A stretch of DNA of 64,000 nt. Source: Elusimicrobiota bacterium (GTDB lineage: Bacteria; Elusimicrobiota; Elusimicrobia; UBA1565). The DNA lies in contig JACPXC010000011.1 of the NCBI GenBank assembly GCA_016196755.1, forward strand, positions 1-64,000, given 5' to 3'. This document shows, piece by piece, positions 1,371-15,697 of this stretch (the stretch's first letter is position 1; the number at the start of each line of letters is the position of its first letter). The notes under the pieces are model-generated. The model did not search any database and was not told the origin of the DNA. It was given only the letters and a program-made list of their open reading frames with translations. Both the position numbers and the translations under genes were made by a program.

Positions 1371-2512
1371 GCCTTTCGCGGCTCCTCGCCTACTGCTTCC
1401 CTCTCGGCTCCGCCGCACTCGCGGCCGCGCTGCTCTGGGCCGCAAGGCCGGTGCTCATGCCGTTTCTTCTCGCGTTGGCCTTCGCCTACCTCGCCGATCC
1501 CGCCGTCCGGTCGTTCCAATCCCTGGGACTCCGACGCGCCCCGAGCGTCGGACTCGTCCACCTCATCCTGATCGCGGCCGTGGTCGCGGGGGCCTCTTTC
1601 GCCGTAAAGCGGCTCAGGGCCGAGACGGCCCGCATCGAATCGGGCACCTCGGCGCCGTGGGAGGAGCTCGACTCGAGCGACGCCGGGCAATTGGAGAACG
1701 CCGCCCGGCTCAGCCCCGTCGCCGAAAAATTCGACGATCTCCTCGCGGCCGCCGAGCCTTGGGTCCTCGAGGCCAACGAGTGGACGCTTGGAGTCGACAT
1801 GGAGGGTTGGCGCTCTAAGGCGGCCGCCGGGGCGGCGTCCGGACTCGGCGTCGGCGTTTCCGAGTTCGGGGCGCTGCTCATACGGGCGCTCTCGTGGCTT
1901 CTCCTGATCCCCTTCGCGTCATATTTCATCCTGCTGGCCGGCCCCGGGGCCCTCGACTCCCTGCTCCGGCTGGCCTCGGGACGCCACATCGAGAAGACCC
2001 TGCACGTCCTCTGGTCGCTCGATGAATCGGTGGGGCGCTATTGCCGGGGGATCCTGCTCGAAAGCCTCGGGATAGGCCTGCTCACCTACGCCGGTCTGCG
2101 CGCCCTGGGCGTCGATTTCGCCTTGTGGCTCTCGCTCCTATCCGGGGCGGCCAACGTGATTCCCGTCGCGGGCCCGGCCGCGGCGGCCGCGGCCGCGCTC
2201 CTCGTTTCCTTCGGAGGGGTACTCCAACCGGGCGCGGGGACGGTTCTCGGTCTTTTCGCGGCCTTGCGCGCGGTCGACCACTGGGCCCTCAAACCGGCTC
2301 TCATGCACGGCGCGGGAGAGCTCCACCCCCTCGCGGTCCTTTTCTCGGTCTGCTGCGGCGCGGCGCTCGGAGGACCCGCGGGCTTGCTGCTCGCGGTCCC
2401 GGCCGCCTGCGTCCTGCGGGTCTTCCTCGTCTCCGGATGGGAATGGACTCGGGACGAACTGGGGCTCAAGGCCCCTCCCGGGGACCTTCGCGCGGAGCGG
2501 GCCCTTGTTTGA
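1367..2512 (+). CDS. AI-2E family (PerM-like) membrane transporter
   Basis: A 381-residue polytopic inner-membrane protein. Two hydrophobic segments lie at the N-terminus (residues about 10-40), followed by one near 60, a soluble loop of roughly 100 residues, and a C-terminal cluster of at least four segments. This is the layout and length of the AI-2E/PerM exporter family, whose members include autoinducer-2 exporters and Na+/H+ antiporters. The substrate cannot be told from sequence. The start overlaps the previous stop (ATGA), and the last eight bases overlap the TTG start of the caspase gene, so expression should be coupled within the operon. Confidence 0.82.
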   Translation: MSLSRLLAYCFPLGSAALAAALLWAARPVLMPFLLALAFAYLADPAVRSFQSLGLRRAPSVGLVHLILIAAVVAGASFAVKRLRAETARIESGTSAPWEELDSSDAGQLENAARLSPVAEKFDDLLAAAEPWVLEANEWTLGVDMEGWRSKAAAGAASGLGVGVSEFGALLIRALSWLLLIPFASYFILLAGPGALDSLLRLASGRHIEKTLHVLWSLDESVGRYCRGILLESLGIGLLTYAGLRALGVDFALWLSLLSGAANVIPVAGPAAAAAAALLVSFGGVLQPGAGTVLGLFAALRAVDHWALKPALMHGAGELHPLAVLFSVCCGAALGGPAGLLLAVPAACVLRVFLVSGWEWTRDELGLKAPPGDLRAERALV

Positions 2513-5498
2513 GGCCCGGGCGGGCGTCCTCGCGGCCATTCTTTGGATGCTTCCCCTCTCGGTCCTCTTCGCGGAGGCGCCTTCCGAGAAGCCCTTCCTG
2601 CGCATCGAGGCAGGGATGCACACGGCCTTGATCACCGCAATCGCGATGGACGCCTCGGGCAGGCTCCTCGCGACCGCCTCTCTCGACAAGACCGCGCGGA
2701 TCTGGGACCTCGCCGATTGGACGGCGGGCGGAGTCCCCGAACCCGTCCGGATCCTCCGGCCCCCGATCGGAGCGGGAGCCGAGGGCGCGATTTACGCGAT
2801 CGCGCTGTCTGCGGACGGGAAAACCGCGGCCGCGGCGGGCCACACCGGGACCGCCTGGGGAAAGACAGCGATCTATCTGTTCGACGTCGACAGCGGCGAA
2901 CTGCGCAAGCGGCTTTCGCTCAGGGTCAGCGACGCCGTGAACCGGCTCGCATTCTCGAAGGACGGGCGCTACCTCGCCGCGGCTCTCGGCGGCCGGGGCG
3001 GGATCCGGCTATTCGACTCCGCCGAGGACTACGCCTTCGTCGCCGGCGACACGGACTTCAAGGGGCCGAGCTACGGCCTCGATTTCGACCGCGAGGGGCG
3101 CCTGGCCGCTTCAGCCTACGACGGGACCGTCCGCCTCTACGGGGACGGCTACCGCAAGGGTTCGAAGGCCTCCCCGAAGCGCGTCTCCCCGCTCGCCGCC
3201 CGCCAGACACGGGCCGGGCGGCAGCCGGCGGGGCTCGCCTTTTCTCCCGACGGAAAAAGCCTGGCCGTCGGCTTCAACGACTCACCAGGCGTCGTCGTCC
3301 TTGACGCGCGCGACCTCGCAGTCCGCTTCACCCCGGACCCCGGCGGCGTGAACGGGCCTTTATCCGCGGTCGCTTGGTCGACCGACGGAAGCTTCCTTTT
3401 CGCCGGGGGAAAGAACGCCCTCAAGGGCCGCTTCGCCGTCCGCCGCTGGACGGCCGGGGGCCGGAACCCGGTCGACGTCGCCGCCGCCGGAGACACCCTC
3501 ACAGCCATTCTCCCGCACGGCGAGCGCGGCGCCCTGTTCAGTTCGGCCGAACCCTCCTTCGGGGTGATCGACGCCGCCGGAAAACCCGGACGGGTCCGCG
3601 CGCCCGTGACCGCGGATTTCCGCGGCCACCGCGAAGGTCTGCGTCTCTCGAGCGATGGTTCGATCGTGGACTTCTCCTTCAAGAACGGCGGGGAGGCCCC
3701 CGCGCGATTCTCGGTCTTCGGCCGGTCCTTGATCCCCGACCCGCCGCCCGCAAGCGAGCTCGCCGGGCCGGCGCTTTCAGCCAAGGGACTCGTGGTCTCC
3801 GATTGGAAGAACGACACCCGCCCCAAGCTCAACGGGCGGGGCCTCGTCTTGGACTTAGACGAGAGATCGCGCAGCCTGTCCGTCGAACCCGGGGGACGGG
3901 GTTTCCTCCTCGGGACGGAACGGCGCCTGCGGCGCTACGACGCGCGGGGAGCGCGGATCTGGGAGCGGCCTGTTCCAGGTCCCGCCTGGGCCGTCAACGT
4001 CGCCGGAAAGGAACCCCTGGTTTCGGCGGCGCTCGGGGACGGCACGATTCGCTGGTATTCGCTCCAAAGCGGGGCCGAGCTGTTGGCGCTGTTCCCCCAC
4101 CCCGACGGCCGGAGGTGGGTGATGTGGACCCCGACAGGCTATTACGACGCCTCGGTCAACGGCGAGGATCTGATCGGCTGGCACGTGAACAACGGTCCGG
4201 ACAAGGCCGCCTCGTTCTACTCGGCCGGACAGTTCCGGTCTCTCTATTCCGCCCCGCGAGTCGTCGCCGAGATCCTCGACCGATTCAACGAGGACGAGGC
4301 CGTTCGCGTCGGCCTCAAGCAAGCCAGGCGCGAGCTCGACAAGGGCCTCCTGCCCCCCGGCTTCGTCCTCCTCGGCGAGCCCGAGGTCGCGGGCCTGGAC
4401 GTCGCGGTTCGCTACCGCGTCGCGGACGCCGCGGGGGGGCCGCCGGGTGAGGACGCCTCCGTCGCGGTGCTGTTCGACGGCCGCCCCGTGCACGCGGCGA
4501 CCCCCCCCTCGGGCGGCGAAGGGACGATGCGCTTCACGGTCCCGCGGACCTCGGGCCTCTTGTCGTTTATCACGAAGAGCCGCTTCGCGGTCGGGCGGCC
4601 GGTCTCGATCGCCTTGGGAAAGCCGGACCCCCGCGATTTCACCCCGCGCGCCAGGTCCGCGTTCAAGGCCTCGGCGCGCTCGAGCGCGAAGCCCTCGGCG
4701 CCCGAGGTCGGCGGGCTTCCCAACTTGTGGATACTCGCGGTCGGGGTCTCGCGCTTCCTCGACAAGGCCACCAATCCACTGAGCTTCGCCCATCTCGACG
4801 CCCAAGCCTTCGTTGAGAGCATGAAAAAACAGCAGGGAAAGCTCTACGCGAAGGTGTCCGCGGGCCGCCCCCTCCTCAACGAACTCGCGACGAAGAACAA
4901 CATCGAGGAGGGCCTCCAGTGGCTGAGCCGGGTGACGGGGCCCGGCGACGTGGGGGTCGTCTACATGTCGAGCCACGGCACGACAGACGATAAGGGAAAC
5001 TACCTCTTCGTCAACTACGATGCGGGAAAAGACGCCGGCTCGCTTCTCTCGGGAGAGAAGATCCGCGATATTCTCGGGAAAGCGCGGGGCAAGCTCGTGG
5101 TTTTCCTCGACACCTGCCATTCGGGAGAGGTCATGGGAGCCAACCGGGGCGTCAACGTGGACGGGTTCGTCAACCAACTGGCCAGCCCCGAGAGCGGGGT
5201 CGTGGTTTTCACGGCGGCGACGGGCAGCCAACTCTCCTACGAGTACCCCGCCTGCGGTCATGGGATTTTCACGCAGGCCCTTCTGGAAGGTGTCGAGGGA
5301 CGGGCGGCGTATCGCGACGACAAAGCGACCATCGGTTCCCTCGACGACTACATCTGGGGGAAAGTCAGTTGGGTCTCCAAAAAGGCCAACACGGTCCAGA
5401 CCCCTTCCTCCGCCAAGCCCTACCTGATGCCCAATTTTCCGCTCGCTTCGAGCATCCCGGAGAGCCAACGGACGAAGATCTGTTTTCCCCGCCCGTAA
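2505..5498 (+). CDS. secreted WD40-repeat / caspase-fold (C14) protease
   Basis: A 997-residue protein. A hydrophobic leader (about residues 8-23) predicts export. WD40-like repeats occupy about 40-540 (for example DKTARIWDL and DGTVRLYGD) and should form a propeller. A caspase/metacaspase domain covers about 740-975, with the catalytic dyad visible as H824 in SSHG and C871 in DTCHSG. Bacterial proteins of this type cleave after basic or acidic residues and are often linked to regulated proteolysis or cell death; the target here is unknown. The start is a TTG at 2505 that overlaps the stop of the transporter gene; no better start precedes the leader. It is the last gene of the M23 operon. Confidence 0.87.
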   Translation: MFEARAGVLAAILWMLPLSVLFAEAPSEKPFLRIEAGMHTALITAIAMDASGRLLATASLDKTARIWDLADWTAGGVPEPVRILRPPIGAGAEGAIYAIALSADGKTAAAAGHTGTAWGKTAIYLFDVDSGELRKRLSLRVSDAVNRLAFSKDGRYLAAALGGRGGIRLFDSAEDYAFVAGDTDFKGPSYGLDFDREGRLAASAYDGTVRLYGDGYRKGSKASPKRVSPLAARQTRAGRQPAGLAFSPDGKSLAVGFNDSPGVVVLDARDLAVRFTPDPGGVNGPLSAVAWSTDGSFLFAGGKNALKGRFAVRRWTAGGRNPVDVAAAGDTLTAILPHGERGALFSSAEPSFGVIDAAGKPGRVRAPVTADFRGHREGLRLSSDGSIVDFSFKNGGEAPARFSVFGRSLIPDPPPASELAGPALSAKGLVVSDWKNDTRPKLNGRGLVLDLDERSRSLSVEPGGRGFLLGTERRLRRYDARGARIWERPVPGPAWAVNVAGKEPLVSAALGDGTIRWYSLQSGAELLALFPHPDGRRWVMWTPTGYYDASVNGEDLIGWHVNNGPDKAASFYSAGQFRSLYSAPRVVAEILDRFNEDEAVRVGLKQARRELDKGLLPPGFVLLGEPEVAGLDVAVRYRVADAAGGPPGEDASVAVLFDGRPVHAATPPSGGEGTMRFTVPRTSGLLSFITKSRFAVGRPVSIALGKPDPRDFTPRARSAFKASARSSAKPSAPEVGGLPNLWILAVGVSRFLDKATNPLSFAHLDAQAFVESMKKQQGKLYAKVSAGRPLLNELATKNNIEEGLQWLSRVTGPGDVGVVYMSSHGTTDDKGNYLFVNYDAGKDAGSLLSGEKIRDILGKARGKLVVFLDTCHSGEVMGANRGVNVDGFVNQLASPESGVVVFTAATGSQLSYEYPACGHGIFTQALLEGVEGRAAYRDDKATIGSLDDYIWGKVSWVSKKANTVQTPSSAKPYLMPNFPLASSIPESQRTKICFPRP

Positions 5499-5939: not shown

Positions 5940-6311
5940 TTATTTGGCCAAGGCCGCGGAGACGGCCAGGTGGAAGGAGTCGATGAGGAACGGCTTCGAG
6001 AGGAACCCAGCCACGTAGGGCGCCTTCTTGACCGAGTCGTCGATGGACACGCTTCCGGTCACGATCAGGATCTTGAGGGACTTCAGGCGCTCCTCGTTCT
6101 GGACGCGCTTGGCCAGCGACAGGCCGTCGAGGCCGCGCATCATGACGTCGCTGATGAGGAGGTCCGGTACGGGCCGGAGCGCGTCGGCAAGGAAGATGAA
6201 CGCCCGCACGGGATCGTCGGTGGCCGTGACCTCGTGGCCGCGCGCCGCGAGGGTCGCCTGCATCATCTCGAGGAGCGGCTTGTCGTCGTCTACGAGCAGG
6301 ATCCGAGCCAT
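5940..6311 (-). CDS. stand-alone response-regulator receiver (twin 1)
   Basis: A 123-residue single receiver domain. The acidic cluster D8-D10, phospho-acceptor D55 (SDVMM), T85 and K106 (SKPF) are all present, so it should be phosphorylated normally. There is no output domain, so it should act by protein contact or as a phosphate relay. It lies four bases downstream of a closely similar receiver, and the two share many residues (PDLLISDVMM, LIVT), which indicates tandem duplication. No histidine kinase is adjacent. Confidence 0.88.
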   Translation of the reverse strand: MARILLVDDDKPLLEMMQATLAARGHEVTATDDPVRAFIFLADALRPVPDLLISDVMMRGLDGLSLAKRVQNEERLKSLKILIVTGSVSIDDSVKKAPYVAGFLSKPFLIDSFHLAVSAALAK

Positions 6312-6315
6312 GATC

Positions 6316-6690
6316 TCAGGTCTTTGCCAGGGCCGCGGCCACCGTGTCGCGGAAGAGGTCGATCTTGAACGGCTTGGGGATGAAGCCCACGACGTTGGGG
6401 ACCTCTTTGAACATCTCGTCGAGCTGGGGCTTGGCCGTGACGATGAGGACCTTGAGGCTCCGGAGCCGCTCGTCCTCCATGAGCCGCCGCGTCAGCGTCA
6501 GGCCATCGATCCCGGGCATCATGACGTCGCTGATGAGGAGGTCCGGGACGGGGCTGCCGACGTCGACTAAGACGGTCCAAGCCTGGACCGGGTCGGCGAA
6601 GGCGACGACCTCATAGCCGAGGACACCCAGGGTGTCCTCCATCATATCGAGCAGGGCGCGGTCATCGTCTAGGACCATGATGGTCGCCAT
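6316..6690 (-). CDS. stand-alone response-regulator receiver (twin 2)
   Basis: A 124-residue single receiver domain with D8-D10, D55, T85 and K106 in place. It is the upstream partner of the twin receiver pair and probably transcribed with it. A TACACT box ends six bases before its ATG, suggesting a leaderless message. No DNA-binding or enzymatic output domain is present, and the cognate kinase is not obvious in the neighbourhood. Confidence 0.88.
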   Translation of the reverse strand: MATIMVLDDDRALLDMMEDTLGVLGYEVVAFADPVQAWTVLVDVGSPVPDLLISDVMMPGIDGLTLTRRLMEDERLRSLKVLIVTAKPQLDEMFKEVPNVVGFIPKPFKIDLFRDTVAAALAKT

Positions 6691-7016: not shown

Positions 7017-8012
7017 CTACTTCTTGGAGGTTATAGGCACGTCCCGGCGCCCCGAGAGCCGGAGCGGGGAAAGGTCGTTGCCGGGCACGACGGTCAGCCG
7101 CGGGACGCCCTTCATCGCCGCCTGGATCATGTGCAGGGTGCGCCAGTACTCCTGCAGGTCGTCGAAGCGACCTTTGACTGGCAGGGCAACGTCCAGGTAG
7201 TTGTCGAGCACGTAGGCCGCGCTGCCGGCCAGGAGCACCGGTCCCCCGTCTAGGTTCACCCACAGTCCGAGCGTCCCCGGGGTGCGGCCGGGCAGGTTCA
7301 CGAGCATCAAGCTCCCGTCGCCCAGGAGGTCCATGCCGTTCTCGAAGGGGCCAAAGGACGGGCTGTTGGCGAGGTCGACGAGCTTGAGCTTGATCCGCCC
7401 CTCGAAGGCGGCCGGGTCGAGCGGCGCGGGCGGGGACTTCTGGCGGCCCTTGCGCCAATCCCACTCGCGCTCGCTGAGGACCACGGTGGCCTCGGGGAAT
7501 GCGTCGAGGAAGCCCGCCTGCTCGGGCTCGAGCGCGGAGACCACGACCCAGCGCACCTCCGAGACCCCGATGCCCTGCAGGGCCAGCTGGCTCACGATGT
7601 CTTGGCCGCGCTTCTGCTTGAAGGTGAACGGCCGCTGCTGGAGGACGTCCAGCACGCTCTCGGGGCGGCGCGCCGAAGAGCTCGAGAGCCCGGTCCCGAA
7701 CAGCACGACGCCGGCCGAGGAATGACGGATGACGAAGACCGGGGCGTCGAGCTTGAGCTTGGCGTGGAAGCTCTTCATCGCCGAGACGGTCTCCCCGTGC
7801 GTGCGGACGGTCCCGGTGTTGACCGCCGACATGCGGACGCTGTCGGCGCCGCGCCCAGAGAGCAAGGACAGCGCGAAGGTATGGGGGATCTTCCGGATGT
7901 CGGTCGGCTTGGGCGGCGGCATGACCAGCCAGGGGTTCTTGCCCTGAGGAAGCTCGGGAAGACAGCCCGCCAGGGCGGCGAGCAGGGCGGCCGCGGCCAG
8001 GGCGCGCCTCAC
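7017..8012 (-). CDS. metallo-beta-lactamase-fold lipoprotein lacking all metal ligands
   Basis: A 331-residue lipoprotein (lipobox ending LAGC, Cys17). The fold and order of motifs match the lactonase branch of the metallo-beta-lactamase family, yet each metal ligand is replaced: the HxHxDH segment reads SALEPEQAG (A160, E162, E164, Q165), the second motif LPGRTPG has R243 for His, AGSAAY has S264 for Asp, and PGND has N312 for His. It is therefore very probably not a hydrolase and may bind a ligand or a partner. The GTG start overlaps the stop of the preceding secreted protein by four bases. It is the last gene of the extended atp operon. Confidence 0.72.
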   Translation of the reverse strand: MRRALAAAALLAALAGCLPELPQGKNPWLVMPPPKPTDIRKIPHTFALSLLSGRGADSVRMSAVNTGTVRTHGETVSAMKSFHAKLKLDAPVFVIRHSSAGVVLFGTGLSSSSARRPESVLDVLQQRPFTFKQKRGQDIVSQLALQGIGVSEVRWVVVSALEPEQAGFLDAFPEATVVLSEREWDWRKGRQKSPPAPLDPAAFEGRIKLKLVDLANSPSFGPFENGMDLLGDGSLMLVNLPGRTPGTLGLWVNLDGGPVLLAGSAAYVLDNYLDVALPVKGRFDDLQEYWRTLHMIQAAMKGVPRLTVVPGNDLSPLRLSGRRDVPITSKK

Positions 8013-8587
8013 CGCGGGGCTTCTTCGAGGGCGAGGTTGAGGAGGACCTTGTCCTGGGAATCCTTCCAGGACCGCTCCACCTCCTCAAGGTGAGCGACGA
8101 TCTCGGCCGCCGCCGCGAAGGCGGCCGGATAGCGCGCCGCGTCGGCGCCCGCGGCGGCTCGCTCGGCGCTCAGGCTCTGGAGCTTGACCGGGATGTCGTC
8201 GGTCCCGGGCAGGAGGTTCTCGGTCTGGGTCTCGCGCTTGACGGCGCCGAGCTTTCTCAAGTCCTCGAGCGCCTTGGCCGCCGCGTCGCGCGAGAGGACG
8301 TAGGACCACTGCATGTAGCGGACCTTCTCCGAGCCGACCTGGCTCGAGGCCGGGACGGTGGAGACGCCCTTGCGCTTGGCCAGGACCTTCTCGACCTTCT
8401 CGCGGGCCTTGGCAAAATCCTTGGCCGCGACCTCGAGGTGCCAGAAGGCGCCATAGGCGCGCACCGGGTAGCGCTTCATCCAGAAGCCGCCCGGCGGCGG
8501 AGCCGCCAAGGCGACCGGGCCGGGCTGGGCCGTCTCGACGGCACGGGCCCCCGCCGCGCCTAAGAGGACCGTCAGGAGGGCGACCAT
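8009..8587 (-). CDS. secreted hypothetical protein downstream of atpC
   Basis: A 192-residue protein with an N-terminal signal peptide (about residues 1-16), a compact alpha/beta region (about 35-125), and a C-terminal helical stretch rich in Ala, Glu and Lys. No family is recognised with confidence; the middle resembles small domains that pair a strand-rich sheet with a long helix. It starts 11 bases after atpC and overlaps the lipoprotein gene by four bases, so it is probably co-expressed with the ATP synthase genes. Confidence 0.65.
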   Translation of the reverse strand: MVALLTVLLGAAGARAVETAQPGPVALAAPPPGGFWMKRYPVRAYGAFWHLEVAAKDFAKAREKVEKVLAKRKGVSTVPASSQVGSEKVRYMQWSYVLSRDAAAKALEDLRKLGAVKRETQTENLLPGTDDIPVKLQSLSAERAAAGADAARYPAAFAAAAEIVAHLEEVERSWKDSQDKVLLNLALEEAPR

Positions 8588-8598
8588 GCCCCCCGCGC

Positions 8599-9048
8599 TC
8601 AGTGGTCCGACTCCGGCGGGTTGGCGCCGGGGTGACGGCGCCCCCGGACCTCGGCGATGCGCACACGCACCTGGGCGCGCCTGAGCGAGGCCTCGGCCTG
8701 AGCCAGGGTCAGAGCGTCGCCCTGCGCCTGCTGGGCCTCGGCCTTCGCGCGCTCCAAGGCCTGGCGGGCGCGCTCGGCGTCGATCTCGGTGGCCATCTCG
8801 GCGGTCTCGGCGAAGATCGAGACCTTGTCGTGGTTGACCTCGGCGAAGCCGCCGGAGACCGCGAAGCTCTTGAGGTCGGCGCCCGAGCGCACACGCACCT
8901 CGCCGGCCTTGAGCTGGACGAGGAACGCCTCATGGCCCGGGAGCACGCCCATCTCCCCCTCGAAGGCGGGGAGCACCACGAAGTCGGCGGACGCGGTGAG
9001 CGCCACCTTCTCGGGCGTGACCAGCTCTAGCGTGAGGGTCTTGGACAT
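8599..9048 (-). CDS. atpC: F1Fo ATP synthase subunit epsilon
   Basis: A 149-residue subunit of the F1 central stalk. The N-terminal beta-sandwich (residues 1-85) shows the usual LELVTPEKV and FEGEMGVLPGHEAFL segments; a C-terminal helical hairpin follows, with a tail slightly longer than usual. It couples rotation of the gamma stalk to the Fo ring and can inhibit ATP hydrolysis. It follows atpD by five bases at the usual position in the operon. Confidence 0.95.
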   Translation of the reverse strand: MSKTLTLELVTPEKVALTASADFVVLPAFEGEMGVLPGHEAFLVQLKAGEVRVRSGADLKSFAVSGGFAEVNHDKVSIFAETAEMATEIDAERARQALERAKAEAQQAQGDALTLAQAEASLRRAQVRVRIAEVRGRRHPGANPPESDH

Positions 9049-9053
9049 CGCGC

Positions 9054-10831
<1,778 letters not shown>

Positions 10832-10849
10832 GTCGTTTCCTGGGAAGCG

Positions 10850-11758
<909 letters not shown>

Positions 11759-11759
11759 G

Positions 11760-12692
11760 TTATGCCCCAGCCGCGGCTTTTACGGGCGCAGCGCCGAGGT
11801 AGTCGCGGATGCCGTCCTCGGGCGCCCAGGCCGCCGAGAAGCCCAGGCCCTCGCGGGCGGCCGCGGGGTCGCCCTGCGTCTCGTTCTGATAGAAGGGATA
11901 CGGGTTCTTGAAGTACTCGGGCTCGAGGCGCGTGCCCAAGACTGAGTTGAGGACCTCGATGATCCGGTTGAAGGTCGTCGTCTTGCCGGTGCAGACGTTG
12001 TAGACCCCGGAGGCCTTGGCTTCGGCGGCTTTGAGGTTGGCGGCGACGACGTCCTTGACGTAGATGTGGTCGCGGTACTGCTCGCCGTGCTCGAAGACCC
12101 GGGGGCGCTTGCCGGCCTTCATCTGGAGGTGGAGTTGGTGGATCATGCTCGAGACCTTGCCCTTATGGGCCTCGCGGGGGCCGAAGACGTTGAAGTAGCG
12201 CAGGCCCACGACGCACAGGGACGGCTCCTCCTTGAGGAAGCCGTCGGCGACGCGCTCCATGACCATCTTGGAGAATCCGTAGACGTTCATCGGCGTGGGC
12301 GCCTGGCTCTCGCGCATCGGCAGGGTCCCCGCGCCGTAGGTCCCGGCGGAGGAGGCGTAGACGACCCGGCGCACGCCGGACTCCAGGGCGAAGGAGAGGA
12401 TGTTGCGGAAGCCTTCGACGTTGACCTCCATCATCCTCTTCTGGTCCATGACCGTGGTGTCGGTGATGGCGGCTTGATGGAAGATCGCGTCGACCGGCCC
12501 GACCCGGCCCACCCATTCCTGCGGCTTGGCGATGTCGGCGGCCACGCAGTCGCCGGAAAAGCCCGCCAGGTTCTCGAAGTGCCCGGAGGAGAAGTCGTCG
12601 ACGACGACGACCGACACGCCGCGCCGCTCCAGCTCGAGCGCCAGGTTCGAGCCGACGAACCCCGCGCCGCCGGTGACGAGGACCCGCCTCAT
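11760..12692 (-). CDS. NAD-dependent epimerase (extended SDR, HldD-like) inside the atp operon
   Basis: A 310-residue extended short-chain dehydrogenase. The NAD motif GGAGFVGSN (8-16), SSAGTYG, and catalytic Y138/K142 (YGFSK) are present. The pattern of residues, including RYFNVFGPRE and EHGEQYRDHIYVKD, is closest to ADP-glyceromanno-heptose 6-epimerases that act in lipopolysaccharide core synthesis; other nucleotide-sugar substrates remain possible. The start overlaps the preceding secreted-protein gene by four bases and its stop lies one base before atpG, so it is embedded in the ATP synthase operon. Confidence 0.83.
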   Translation of the reverse strand: MRRVLVTGGAGFVGSNLALELERRGVSVVVVDDFSSGHFENLAGFSGDCVAADIAKPQEWVGRVGPVDAIFHQAAITDTTVMDQKRMMEVNVEGFRNILSFALESGVRRVVYASSAGTYGAGTLPMRESQAPTPMNVYGFSKMVMERVADGFLKEEPSLCVVGLRYFNVFGPREAHKGKVSSMIHQLHLQMKAGKRPRVFEHGEQYRDHIYVKDVVAANLKAAEAKASGVYNVCTGKTTTFNRIIEVLNSVLGTRLEPEYFKNPYPFYQNETQGDPAAAREGLGFSAAWAPEDGIRDYLGAAPVKAAAGA

Positions 12693-13143
12693 CGGGGGAC
12701 CCCCGCCCGGCGCTGGACCAGGACCTCCAGCGGAACGCCGGTGGCCAGCGAGAGCCGGCTGATGCGGTCGACCAGCGACTTCTTGACGGGCTTGACGCCC
12801 GGGACGCTCGCGCCGCCCGCGGTGGCGGCGACGAGGTGGAGGAAGACCTCCTTGTCCCAATTGTTTATGACCTGCGTCGTCTTGAGGTCAGCCTCGCCTT
12901 TCTTCACGAAGCCCTTGAGGGCGTCGGGCTTGCGCAGCAGATAATCGGCCAAGGCCAGGGGTGCTGCCCCCTCGGGGACGAACGCGAACACCCCGGCCAG
13001 CTCGGCATGGTCGGTCGCGACGAGCGCCTCGATCACGCTCATGTTGATGAGCTGGGGCATGGCGGGAGCGTCGCTGTTCATGAACTGCGCCCGCGACGGG
13101 CCCGCGAGGAAGGCGGCGAGAACTGCCGCCGCCAGGAACTCTC

Positions 13144-13147
<4 letters not shown>
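12689..13147 (-). CDS. secreted hypothetical protein between atpA and the epimerase
   Basis: A 152-residue protein starting with a GTG that overlaps the atpA stop (GTGA). A signal peptide (about residues 1-20, ending GPSRAQ) predicts export. The mature part is helical, with an [16 protein letters not shown] segment and a basic C-terminus. No family is recognised. Overlaps on both sides show tight translational coupling to atpA and to the epimerase gene. An exported protein here is unexpected, since the ATP synthase has no periplasmic subunit. Confidence 0.66.
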
Positions 13148-14658
<1,511 letters not shown>

Positions 14659-14660
14659 GG

Positions 14661-15197
14661 TCAGTTCCCCGCTAGGCGGGCGCCGAGCGCCCGCAGTTTG
14701 CCTTTAAGGCTTCCGTCCAAGACCCAGTCGCCGACGCGCACCGAAACGCCGGCCATGAGCTCAGGGTCTTCCTTTACGTCTAAAAGCACGCGCTTGCCGA
14801 GGAACGCCCCCAGGCGCTCCGAGAGCAGCTTCGAGTCGACCTCGGTCAGCGGCCGGGCCGTCTTGACCGAGGCGTGGACGAGGCCCGCGCCCTCGTCGGA
14901 GAGCCGCTGAAAATCGCCCGCCATCGCCGGCAGGAGGGCGAAGCGCTTCTTCTCGATGAGCAGCTCCAAGAAGCGCAGGACGCGCTTGGAGACCGTGTCG
15001 CCCAGCTCGGCCCGGAGGGCCGCCTTCTTGTCGGCGGTGCTGGTGCGCGGGTGGCGGAACTCTGCCATCCTGGCCGCGAGGGCGCGCGAGGCGCGCGCGA
15101 GCTCGGCGCCGACCTTCTCCGACTCCTGGGCGCCCGCCGCGCTCAGGTAGAGGGCCGAGGCGTAGCGGCGGGCCAGGGCGCGGTCCGAGAGCTGCAT
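14661..15197 (-). CDS. atpH: F1Fo ATP synthase subunit delta
   Basis: The 178-residue peripheral-stalk subunit that ties F1 to subunit b. The N-terminal helical domain begins [11 protein letters not shown], and the C-terminal part carries the usual [20 protein letters not shown] segment. It overlaps the atpF stop by one base and precedes atpA by two, the canonical order. Confidence 0.94.
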
Positions 15198-15697
15198 CAG
15201 TTCTTCTTCTCCGCCAGCTCGGTGAAGAACTGGCCGAGGACGGCCTTCTGGGTGGCCTCGTCGACCGACTTCTTGACCAGCCGCTCGGCCGCGAGCAGCG
15301 AGAGCTCGGAGACCTCCTTGCGCAGGTCGGAGACGATGCGGCGCTTGTCTTCGTCGAGCTGGGCCCGGGTCTTGTCGAGCATGGACTTGGACTCCGCCTC
15401 GGCCTCACCCTTGAGGCGGGCGCGCAGGACCTCGGCGTCCGCGGTCACCTTGGCGAAGACGGCCTTGGCCTCGTCGGCGGCCTTGGCCAGGCGAGCCTCG
15501 AGCTCGCCCTGGATGCGCTCGGCCTCGGAGCGGGCCTTCTCGGCGCGCTCGCGCTCCTCGCGCATCTTCTCCTCGCGGGCCTCGACGGCGCCGAGCAGAG
15601 GGCCCCAGGCGAGGGCCCGGAGCAGGCCCACCAGGATGAGGAAGGACATGATGGTCCAGATGATCAGGCCTTTGTCGGGGTTGAGCAGCGCGTCCAT
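15197..15697 (-). CDS. atpF: F1Fo ATP synthase subunit b
   Basis: A 166-residue subunit with one N-terminal membrane helix (about residues 12-32, LIIWTIMSFLILVGLL) and a long charged coiled coil to the C-terminus. It forms the peripheral stalk. An AAGGAG ribosome-binding site precedes the ATG. A single b gene is present; no b' paralogue is seen. It is separated from atpE by a 73-base spacer with a strong hairpin. Confidence 0.94.
   Translation of the reverse strand: MDALLNPDKGLIIWTIMSFLILVGLLRALAWGPLLGAVEAREEKMREERERAEKARSEAERIQGELEARLAKAADEAKAVFAKVTADAEVLRARLKGEAEAESKSMLDKTRAQLDEDKRRIVSDLRKEVSELSLLAAERLVKKSVDEATQKAVLGQFFTELAEKKN

Follow-up and report, generated by a model that had tools for sequence, protein, structure and literature searches.

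A lactonase-like lipoprotein of Elusimicrobiota in which all seven metal ligands are replaced

The stretch of DNA analyzed here (the window) comprises positions 1–64,000 of contig JACPXC010000011.1 from an Elusimicrobiota bacterium (GCA_016196755.1; 64,000 nt). It encodes a lipoprotein that resembles AHL lactonases in sequence and predicted fold, but carries other residues at each of the seven positions where these enzymes bind metal. We think that this protein is probably (at roughly 0.6) a genuine pseudoenzyme that acts in the cell envelope as a module for binding or scaffolding rather than catalysis, most likely in partnership with the product of the neighboring gene X. The first-pass annotation of this DNA had already suggested a pseudoenzyme that kept its fold, and this suggestion gains support from the loss of ligands common to its relatives, from purifying selection, from intact relatives outside the phylum and from the predicted MBL fold. 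Our evidence is computational and consists of the fold, the ligand replacements, sequence conservation, the probable repetition of the loss and the coupling to X; the partner, the ligand and the role of the lipoprotein we infer.

Loss of the Metal Site

The reading frame of the lipoprotein runs exactly from a GTG start at 8012 to a stop codon at 7017–7019 (minus strand, Table 1). As metal ligands we take the positions known from AiiA and glyoxalase II, and the equivalence of columns was established in this analysis by alignment with lactonases. The annotation had claimed that every metal ligand is replaced, and the residues it named (A160, E162, E164, Q165, R243, S264 and N312) are all present at the respective positions (0/7 ligands). 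Hence the di-metal site of AHL lactonases, which consists of an HxHxDH motif and an additional His, Asp and His, is absent. The segment S159-A-L-E-P-E-Q165 stands opposite S-H-x-H-x-D-H in the lactonases, and G242-R243-T-P-G opposite G-H-x-x-G. Since GcL at this column reads S-G-H-A-W-G, without the second His, and intact members of the family likewise keep the first His only, R243 is the correct equivalent of the fourth histidine. Among the histidines that might serve as substitutes only H97 is conserved in the whole family. This residue was rejected as a replacement ligand because active lactonases conserve it equally. Judged from the sequence, hydrolysis by the di-metal mechanism of MBL enzymes should be impossible for the window protein.

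Table 1. Coordinates of the lipoprotein gene, its former ligand positions and its neighbors in the window
Feature	Position	Strand	Basis
MBL-fold (AttM/AhlX/GcL-like) lipoprotein, 331 aa, 0/7 metal ligands	7017..8012	-	ORF, family matches, alignment, model
N312 replacing last ligand His (P-G-N312-D vs G-H-D)	7077..7079	-	alignment
S264 replacing metal-bridging Asp (A-G-S264 vs x-x-D)	7221..7223	-	alignment
R243 replacing ligand His of GHxxG motif; Arg in 7/7 of window's family	7284..7286	-	alignment
Degenerate HxHxDH loop S159-A-L-E-P-E-Q-A-G167, four ligand positions	7512..7538	-	alignment
Lipobox L-A-G-C17, lipid anchor cysteine	7962..7973	-	pattern match; 20/24 orthologs by pattern
Gene X, DUF4349-like exported protein of small size (192 aa)	8009..8587	-	signal peptide by eye; DUF4349 in orthologs
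F-type ATP synthase operon 3' part (atpG, PilZ-like ORF, atpD, atpC), upstream of pair	8599..11758	-	order kept in relatives

Structure prediction and superposition assign the window protein to the AttM/AhlX/GcL/AiiA-type MBL fold, as the annotation had presumed when it described the fold as kept. The AlphaFold2 model, which was built from eight sequences (pLDDT 75.5, pTM 0.80; pLDDT below 50 at residues 9–26, 74–83, 113–128 and 268–277), is predicted to contain the alpha-beta/beta-alpha arrangement of this fold. Its neighbors according to Foldseek and VIA-align are GcL, AhlX, AiiA and 6cgy. Foldseek returned a best E value of 1.2e-18 (GcL) and TM values by target length of up to 0.83 (AhlX), and the VIA-align superposition on 6cgy covers 246 residues with a Z score of 25.8 and an rmsd of 2.8. 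A near-intact relative (L043) afforded a weak model (pLDDT 62.8, pTM 0.66), whose top Foldseek alignments had an rmsd of about 11. At the level of sequence, the closest solved protein is the AHL lactonase AhlX (9khq; E 5.8e-9, or 5.1e-25 with the family profile). The NCBIfam model for AttM-type AHL lactonases is matched with an E value of 1.8e-20, yet with 73.6 bits against a cut-off of 390. The Pfam model PF00753 finds each of the 22 aligned orthologs with an E value of 0.1 or less (best 7.6e-27).

Misalignment or a sequencing artefact could create the impression of a lost site while the true ligands lie elsewhere. The Pfam Lactamase_B model (PF00753) scores the window protein at 20.5 bits, below its gathering cut-off of 22.7, and this low score would fit such an explanation. 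However, phmmer, the profile search and MAFFT all pair the same columns with solved or annotated lactonases, and no gaps occur at these motifs when orthologs that kept their ligands are aligned. Since orthologs with 70–78% identity contain replacements of the same kind at the ligand positions, we can also rule out a sequencing error. An artefact of either type appears extremely improbable. The genome of the window encodes eight further PF00753 matches, which we inspected for a general degeneration of its MBL proteins; seven of them contain an H-x-[HD]-x-D-H motif. The eighth (L028) is an MBL protein with H-A-H-E-E-H in place of HxHxDH.

Distribution and Conservation among Relatives

To find relatives we surveyed 340 genomes of the phylum with a profile of the lipoprotein, scoring up to six candidates per genome. 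With a threshold of E ≤ 1e-20 this search identified 25 genomes, 24 of which belong to the order of the window, where 24 of 56 genomes carry an ortholog. The 25th match is a distant relative (G071) with 6/7 ligands, and two distant matches (L025 and L026) stand outside the member count. Of the seven matches with a name, six bear the title Elusimicrobia bacterium and one the title "bacterium".

The annotation had raised the question of whether relatives share the replacements, and full or near-full loss proved to be common to 18 of the 24 orthologs. These proteins, which keep zero or one of the seven ligands, make up the window's family (7 members) and a second clade (genus code g10, 11 members). 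The other orthologs contain four (G037), six (G009, G038 and G035) or all seven ligands (G040 and G049). An intact metal site is most likely the ancestral state, since five out of five plasmid-borne relatives from other phyla (five of 225 matched records) keep 7/7 ligands. Two orthologs, L016 (containing Ns) and L024 (containing a shifted stretch), were left out of the alignment (A1, 22/24 orthologs) and of the tree with the plasmid-borne relatives (22/24), but were included in the ligand counts and in the protein trees.

The annotation had also described the scaffold motifs as kept. For a quantitative comparison we used 29 columns that are invariant in seven intact rows, two from the lipoprotein family and five from plasmid-borne relatives. 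The window's family retains 20 of the 22 non-ligand columns and none of the seven ligand columns (Fisher p = 2.3e-5), a contrast greater than expected by chance. In the second clade, counted here with nine rows (without L016 and L024), the corresponding numbers are 16/22 and 1/7 (p 0.011).

Pairwise dN/dS values for 14 pairs range from 0.086 to 0.390, with some dS values near saturation, and purifying selection on the lipoprotein gene is well supported by these sequence comparisons. We also considered a non-functional gene that decays while being carried along in the ATP-synthase operon. Such decay might explain why the gene is absent from 32 of the 56 genomes of the order, including the close relative G007, and why the copies L016 and L024 are broken or N-filled, although these two frames are possibly assembly errors. 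On the other hand, 22 of 24 frames are open, the lipobox is recognizable in 20 of 24 orthologs, and 28–29 columns are invariant across the order. With dN/dS well below 1, neutral decay is strongly disfavored and was rejected as very improbable.

The former ligand positions evolved differently in the two inactivated clades. In the window's family R243 is the sole fixed residue among them. Columns 160, 162 and 165 are more variable than 72–80% of all columns, and thus no new site was fixed in this family except R243. The second clade has fixed new residues at five of the seven columns (A162, E164, W165, G243 and P264; 10 rows, without L024). At position 164 (7521–7523), which corresponds to the Asp of HxHxDH, each of the 24 members carries an acidic residue (Asp or Glu), including those that lost every other ligand. 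Plain decay of the metal site does not predict this acidic residue, which resists a simple story.

These residues bear on the idea of a re-invented enzyme that relies on a different metal site, or on metal-free chemistry, mediated by residues that became fixed once the ligands were lost (R243 with E74, H83, D270 and D274). All five residues are invariant within the window's family (7/7 members), and the acidic position 164 likewise speaks for this idea. However, fixation led to different residues in the two inactivated clades, with Glu or Asp at position 83 in the second one, and the only His common to all members, H97, also occurs in ordinary active lactonases. New catalysis of this kind seems quite unlikely to us.

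Number of Ligand Losses

Protein trees were built without the ligand-motif columns. In these trees the window's family (99/96) and the second clade (100/100) each form one clade, and the window's family has L008, a protein with 6/7 ligands, as its sister (98/95). A single clade comprising all inactivated members is not rejected by the AU test, either with the protein tree (p 0.09) or with the tree that includes the plasmid-borne relatives (p 0.078). The latter tree does not recover the window's family as one clade, owing to the unplaced L007. The tree of linked operon genes (atpG, atpD, atpC and the epimerase; 18/24 genomes, three of them with less than half of the columns) rejects a single inactivated clade (AU p 0.00056) and unites the window's family and L008 (100/100). 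Because the operon genes reject a single origin of the inactivated clades, total ligand loss probably occurred at least twice, provided that the lipoprotein gene was inherited with its neighborhood. The remaining way out would be an exchange of the lipoprotein gene between the two clades.

Gene X and the ATP-Synthase Neighborhood

The stop codon of X overlaps the GTG start of the lipoprotein gene by 4 bp (GTGA). DUF4349 (PF14257) is matched by 12 of 22 X orthologs at E ≤ 1 (best 5.6e-6), and the copy in the window gave no match. The two genes adjoin each other in 22 of 24 genomes, and in 18 of 24 they share the 4 bp overlap, a count that depends on the choice of start codon. Since X occurs in 23 of the 24 genomes that contain the lipoprotein and in nine of the 32 genomes of the order that do not, X is, by gene content, the more widespread of the two, and the lipoprotein frequently accompanies it. 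X can occur without the lipoprotein, and the intact lipoprotein of G049 (7/7 ligands) is also encoded beside X, so that the pairing does not depend on the inactivated form. The nine genomes with X alone are represented by loci L080–L088; in G017, X follows atpC and overlaps an unrelated gene.

The genes upstream of the pair are presumably ATP-synthase genes. In 18 of the 24 stretches examined, atpC is followed on the same strand by the lipoprotein gene, at a distance of less than 1 to about 7 kb. Of the other six, several end before atpC could appear, and different genes occupy this place in G005 and G040. The operon in this bacterial order (8599–15697, minus strand) carries as inserted genes an NDP-sugar-epimerase-like gene, a PilZ-like ORF that separates atpG from atpD and, behind atpA, a gene for a small exported protein. 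Many relatives share this arrangement. Elsewhere in the window, positions 2505–5498 (plus strand) code for a protein of 997 residues that combines a WD40 propeller at its N-terminus with a caspase-like domain at its C-terminus (Pfam WD40 and Peptidase_C14), and positions 5940–6690 (minus strand) for a tandem pair of stand-alone response-regulator receiver domains.

Proposed Role

A non-enzymatic job for the lipoprotein is probable, because total loss of the ligands apparently occurred at least twice while the gene stayed intact. According to our proposal, this exported, lipid-anchored protein would derive from an MBL hydrolase of the di-metal lactonase type, the metal site of which was dismantled while the scaffold was held under selection. 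The resulting protein may act at the cell envelope as a binding or scaffold module together with X. The old active-site cleft could have become a surface for binding a protein or a ligand, with residues that differ by clade: Arg243 in the window's family, and Ala162, Glu164, Trp165, Gly243 and Pro264 in the second clade. A more far-reaching version of this scenario holds that within one order an exported lactonase turned into a pseudoenzyme on two or more occasions, each time in the same partnership with X, that the resulting envelope module of two proteins is encoded in and serves the ATP-synthase operon, and that the loss of catalysis was a repeated adaptive step rather than an accident. This version we regard as rather doubtful.

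Alternatively, in line with the ligand-sensing role suggested by the annotation, the lipoprotein could be a small-molecule sensor or binding protein, in which the lactonase pocket still holds a lactone-like or acyl ligand but no longer cleaves it. The loop D270-N271...P278 just past the former bridging Asp would suit this function, as intact and inactivated members share it without variation, and D270 is invariant in outside relatives too. Yet residues 268–277 of this loop are modeled with low confidence, and the protein contains no domain for signal output. Homoserine lactones in particular are questionable ligands, since a search of the window's genome for LuxI (PF00765) and for the autoinducer-binding domain of LuxR (PF03472) gave no match at E ≤ 0.001. 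For this reason AHL sensing was disfavored as a leading idea, and sensing in general we consider unlikely. LuxI-like (Autoind_synth) matches occur in six of the 56 genomes of the order (G008, G012, G029, G042, G018 and G037; five above the Pfam cut-off), among which only G037 carries the lipoprotein. Weak matches to the LuxR binding domain were detected in three of the 56, two of which (G003 and G004) belong to the window's family.

Comparison with Known Systems

The non-catalytic module that we propose has the same fold, the same order of motifs and the same scaffold columns as the AHL lactonases AttM, AhlX, GcL and AiiA. It differs from these enzymes by the replacement of all seven ligands, by the lipoprotein signal and by the DUF4349-like neighbor gene.

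MBL-fold pseudoenzymes are already known. INTS9 and CPSF100 are MBL/beta-CASP pseudoenzymes that lost their metal ligands and were kept as protein partners, as described in part of PMC7980224. The likeness to the window protein lies in the loss of ligands while the MBL fold and the gene were retained under selection. INTS9 and CPSF100, however, are eukaryotic RNA-processing subunits that pair with active MBL proteins of their own kin, whereas the window protein is an exported bacterial lipoprotein and its neighbor X is not an MBL protein. The cyanobacterial flavodiiron proteins Flv1 and Flv2 contain an MBL-fold domain without canonical metal ligands, according to a section of PMC4390876. In this respect, and in being bacterial, they match the window protein. 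Flv1 and Flv2 are multi-domain flavoproteins and are not known to be lipoproteins, and their close paralogs Flv3 and Flv4 keep the ligands. In the MBL-fold protein PqsE, the role in binding a partner (RhlR) is separable from catalysis, as stated in a portion of PMC12077149. Unlike the proposed pseudoenzyme, PqsE keeps its catalytic activity. PqsE is also cytosolic.

A search of an open-access library found no paper on this lipoprotein family or on homoserine lactonase pseudoenzymes. To our knowledge, the inactivated MBL-fold proteins described so far are mostly eukaryotic subunits or flavodiiron paralogs, and we know of no exported lipoprotein among them. Here, one orthologous bacterial family spans the range from 7/7 to 0/7 ligands, mostly in the same gene neighborhood, and therefore offers a natural setting for testing how, and for what reason, an enzyme becomes a non-enzyme. 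The lipoprotein is also a candidate partner for the DUF4349-like protein X.
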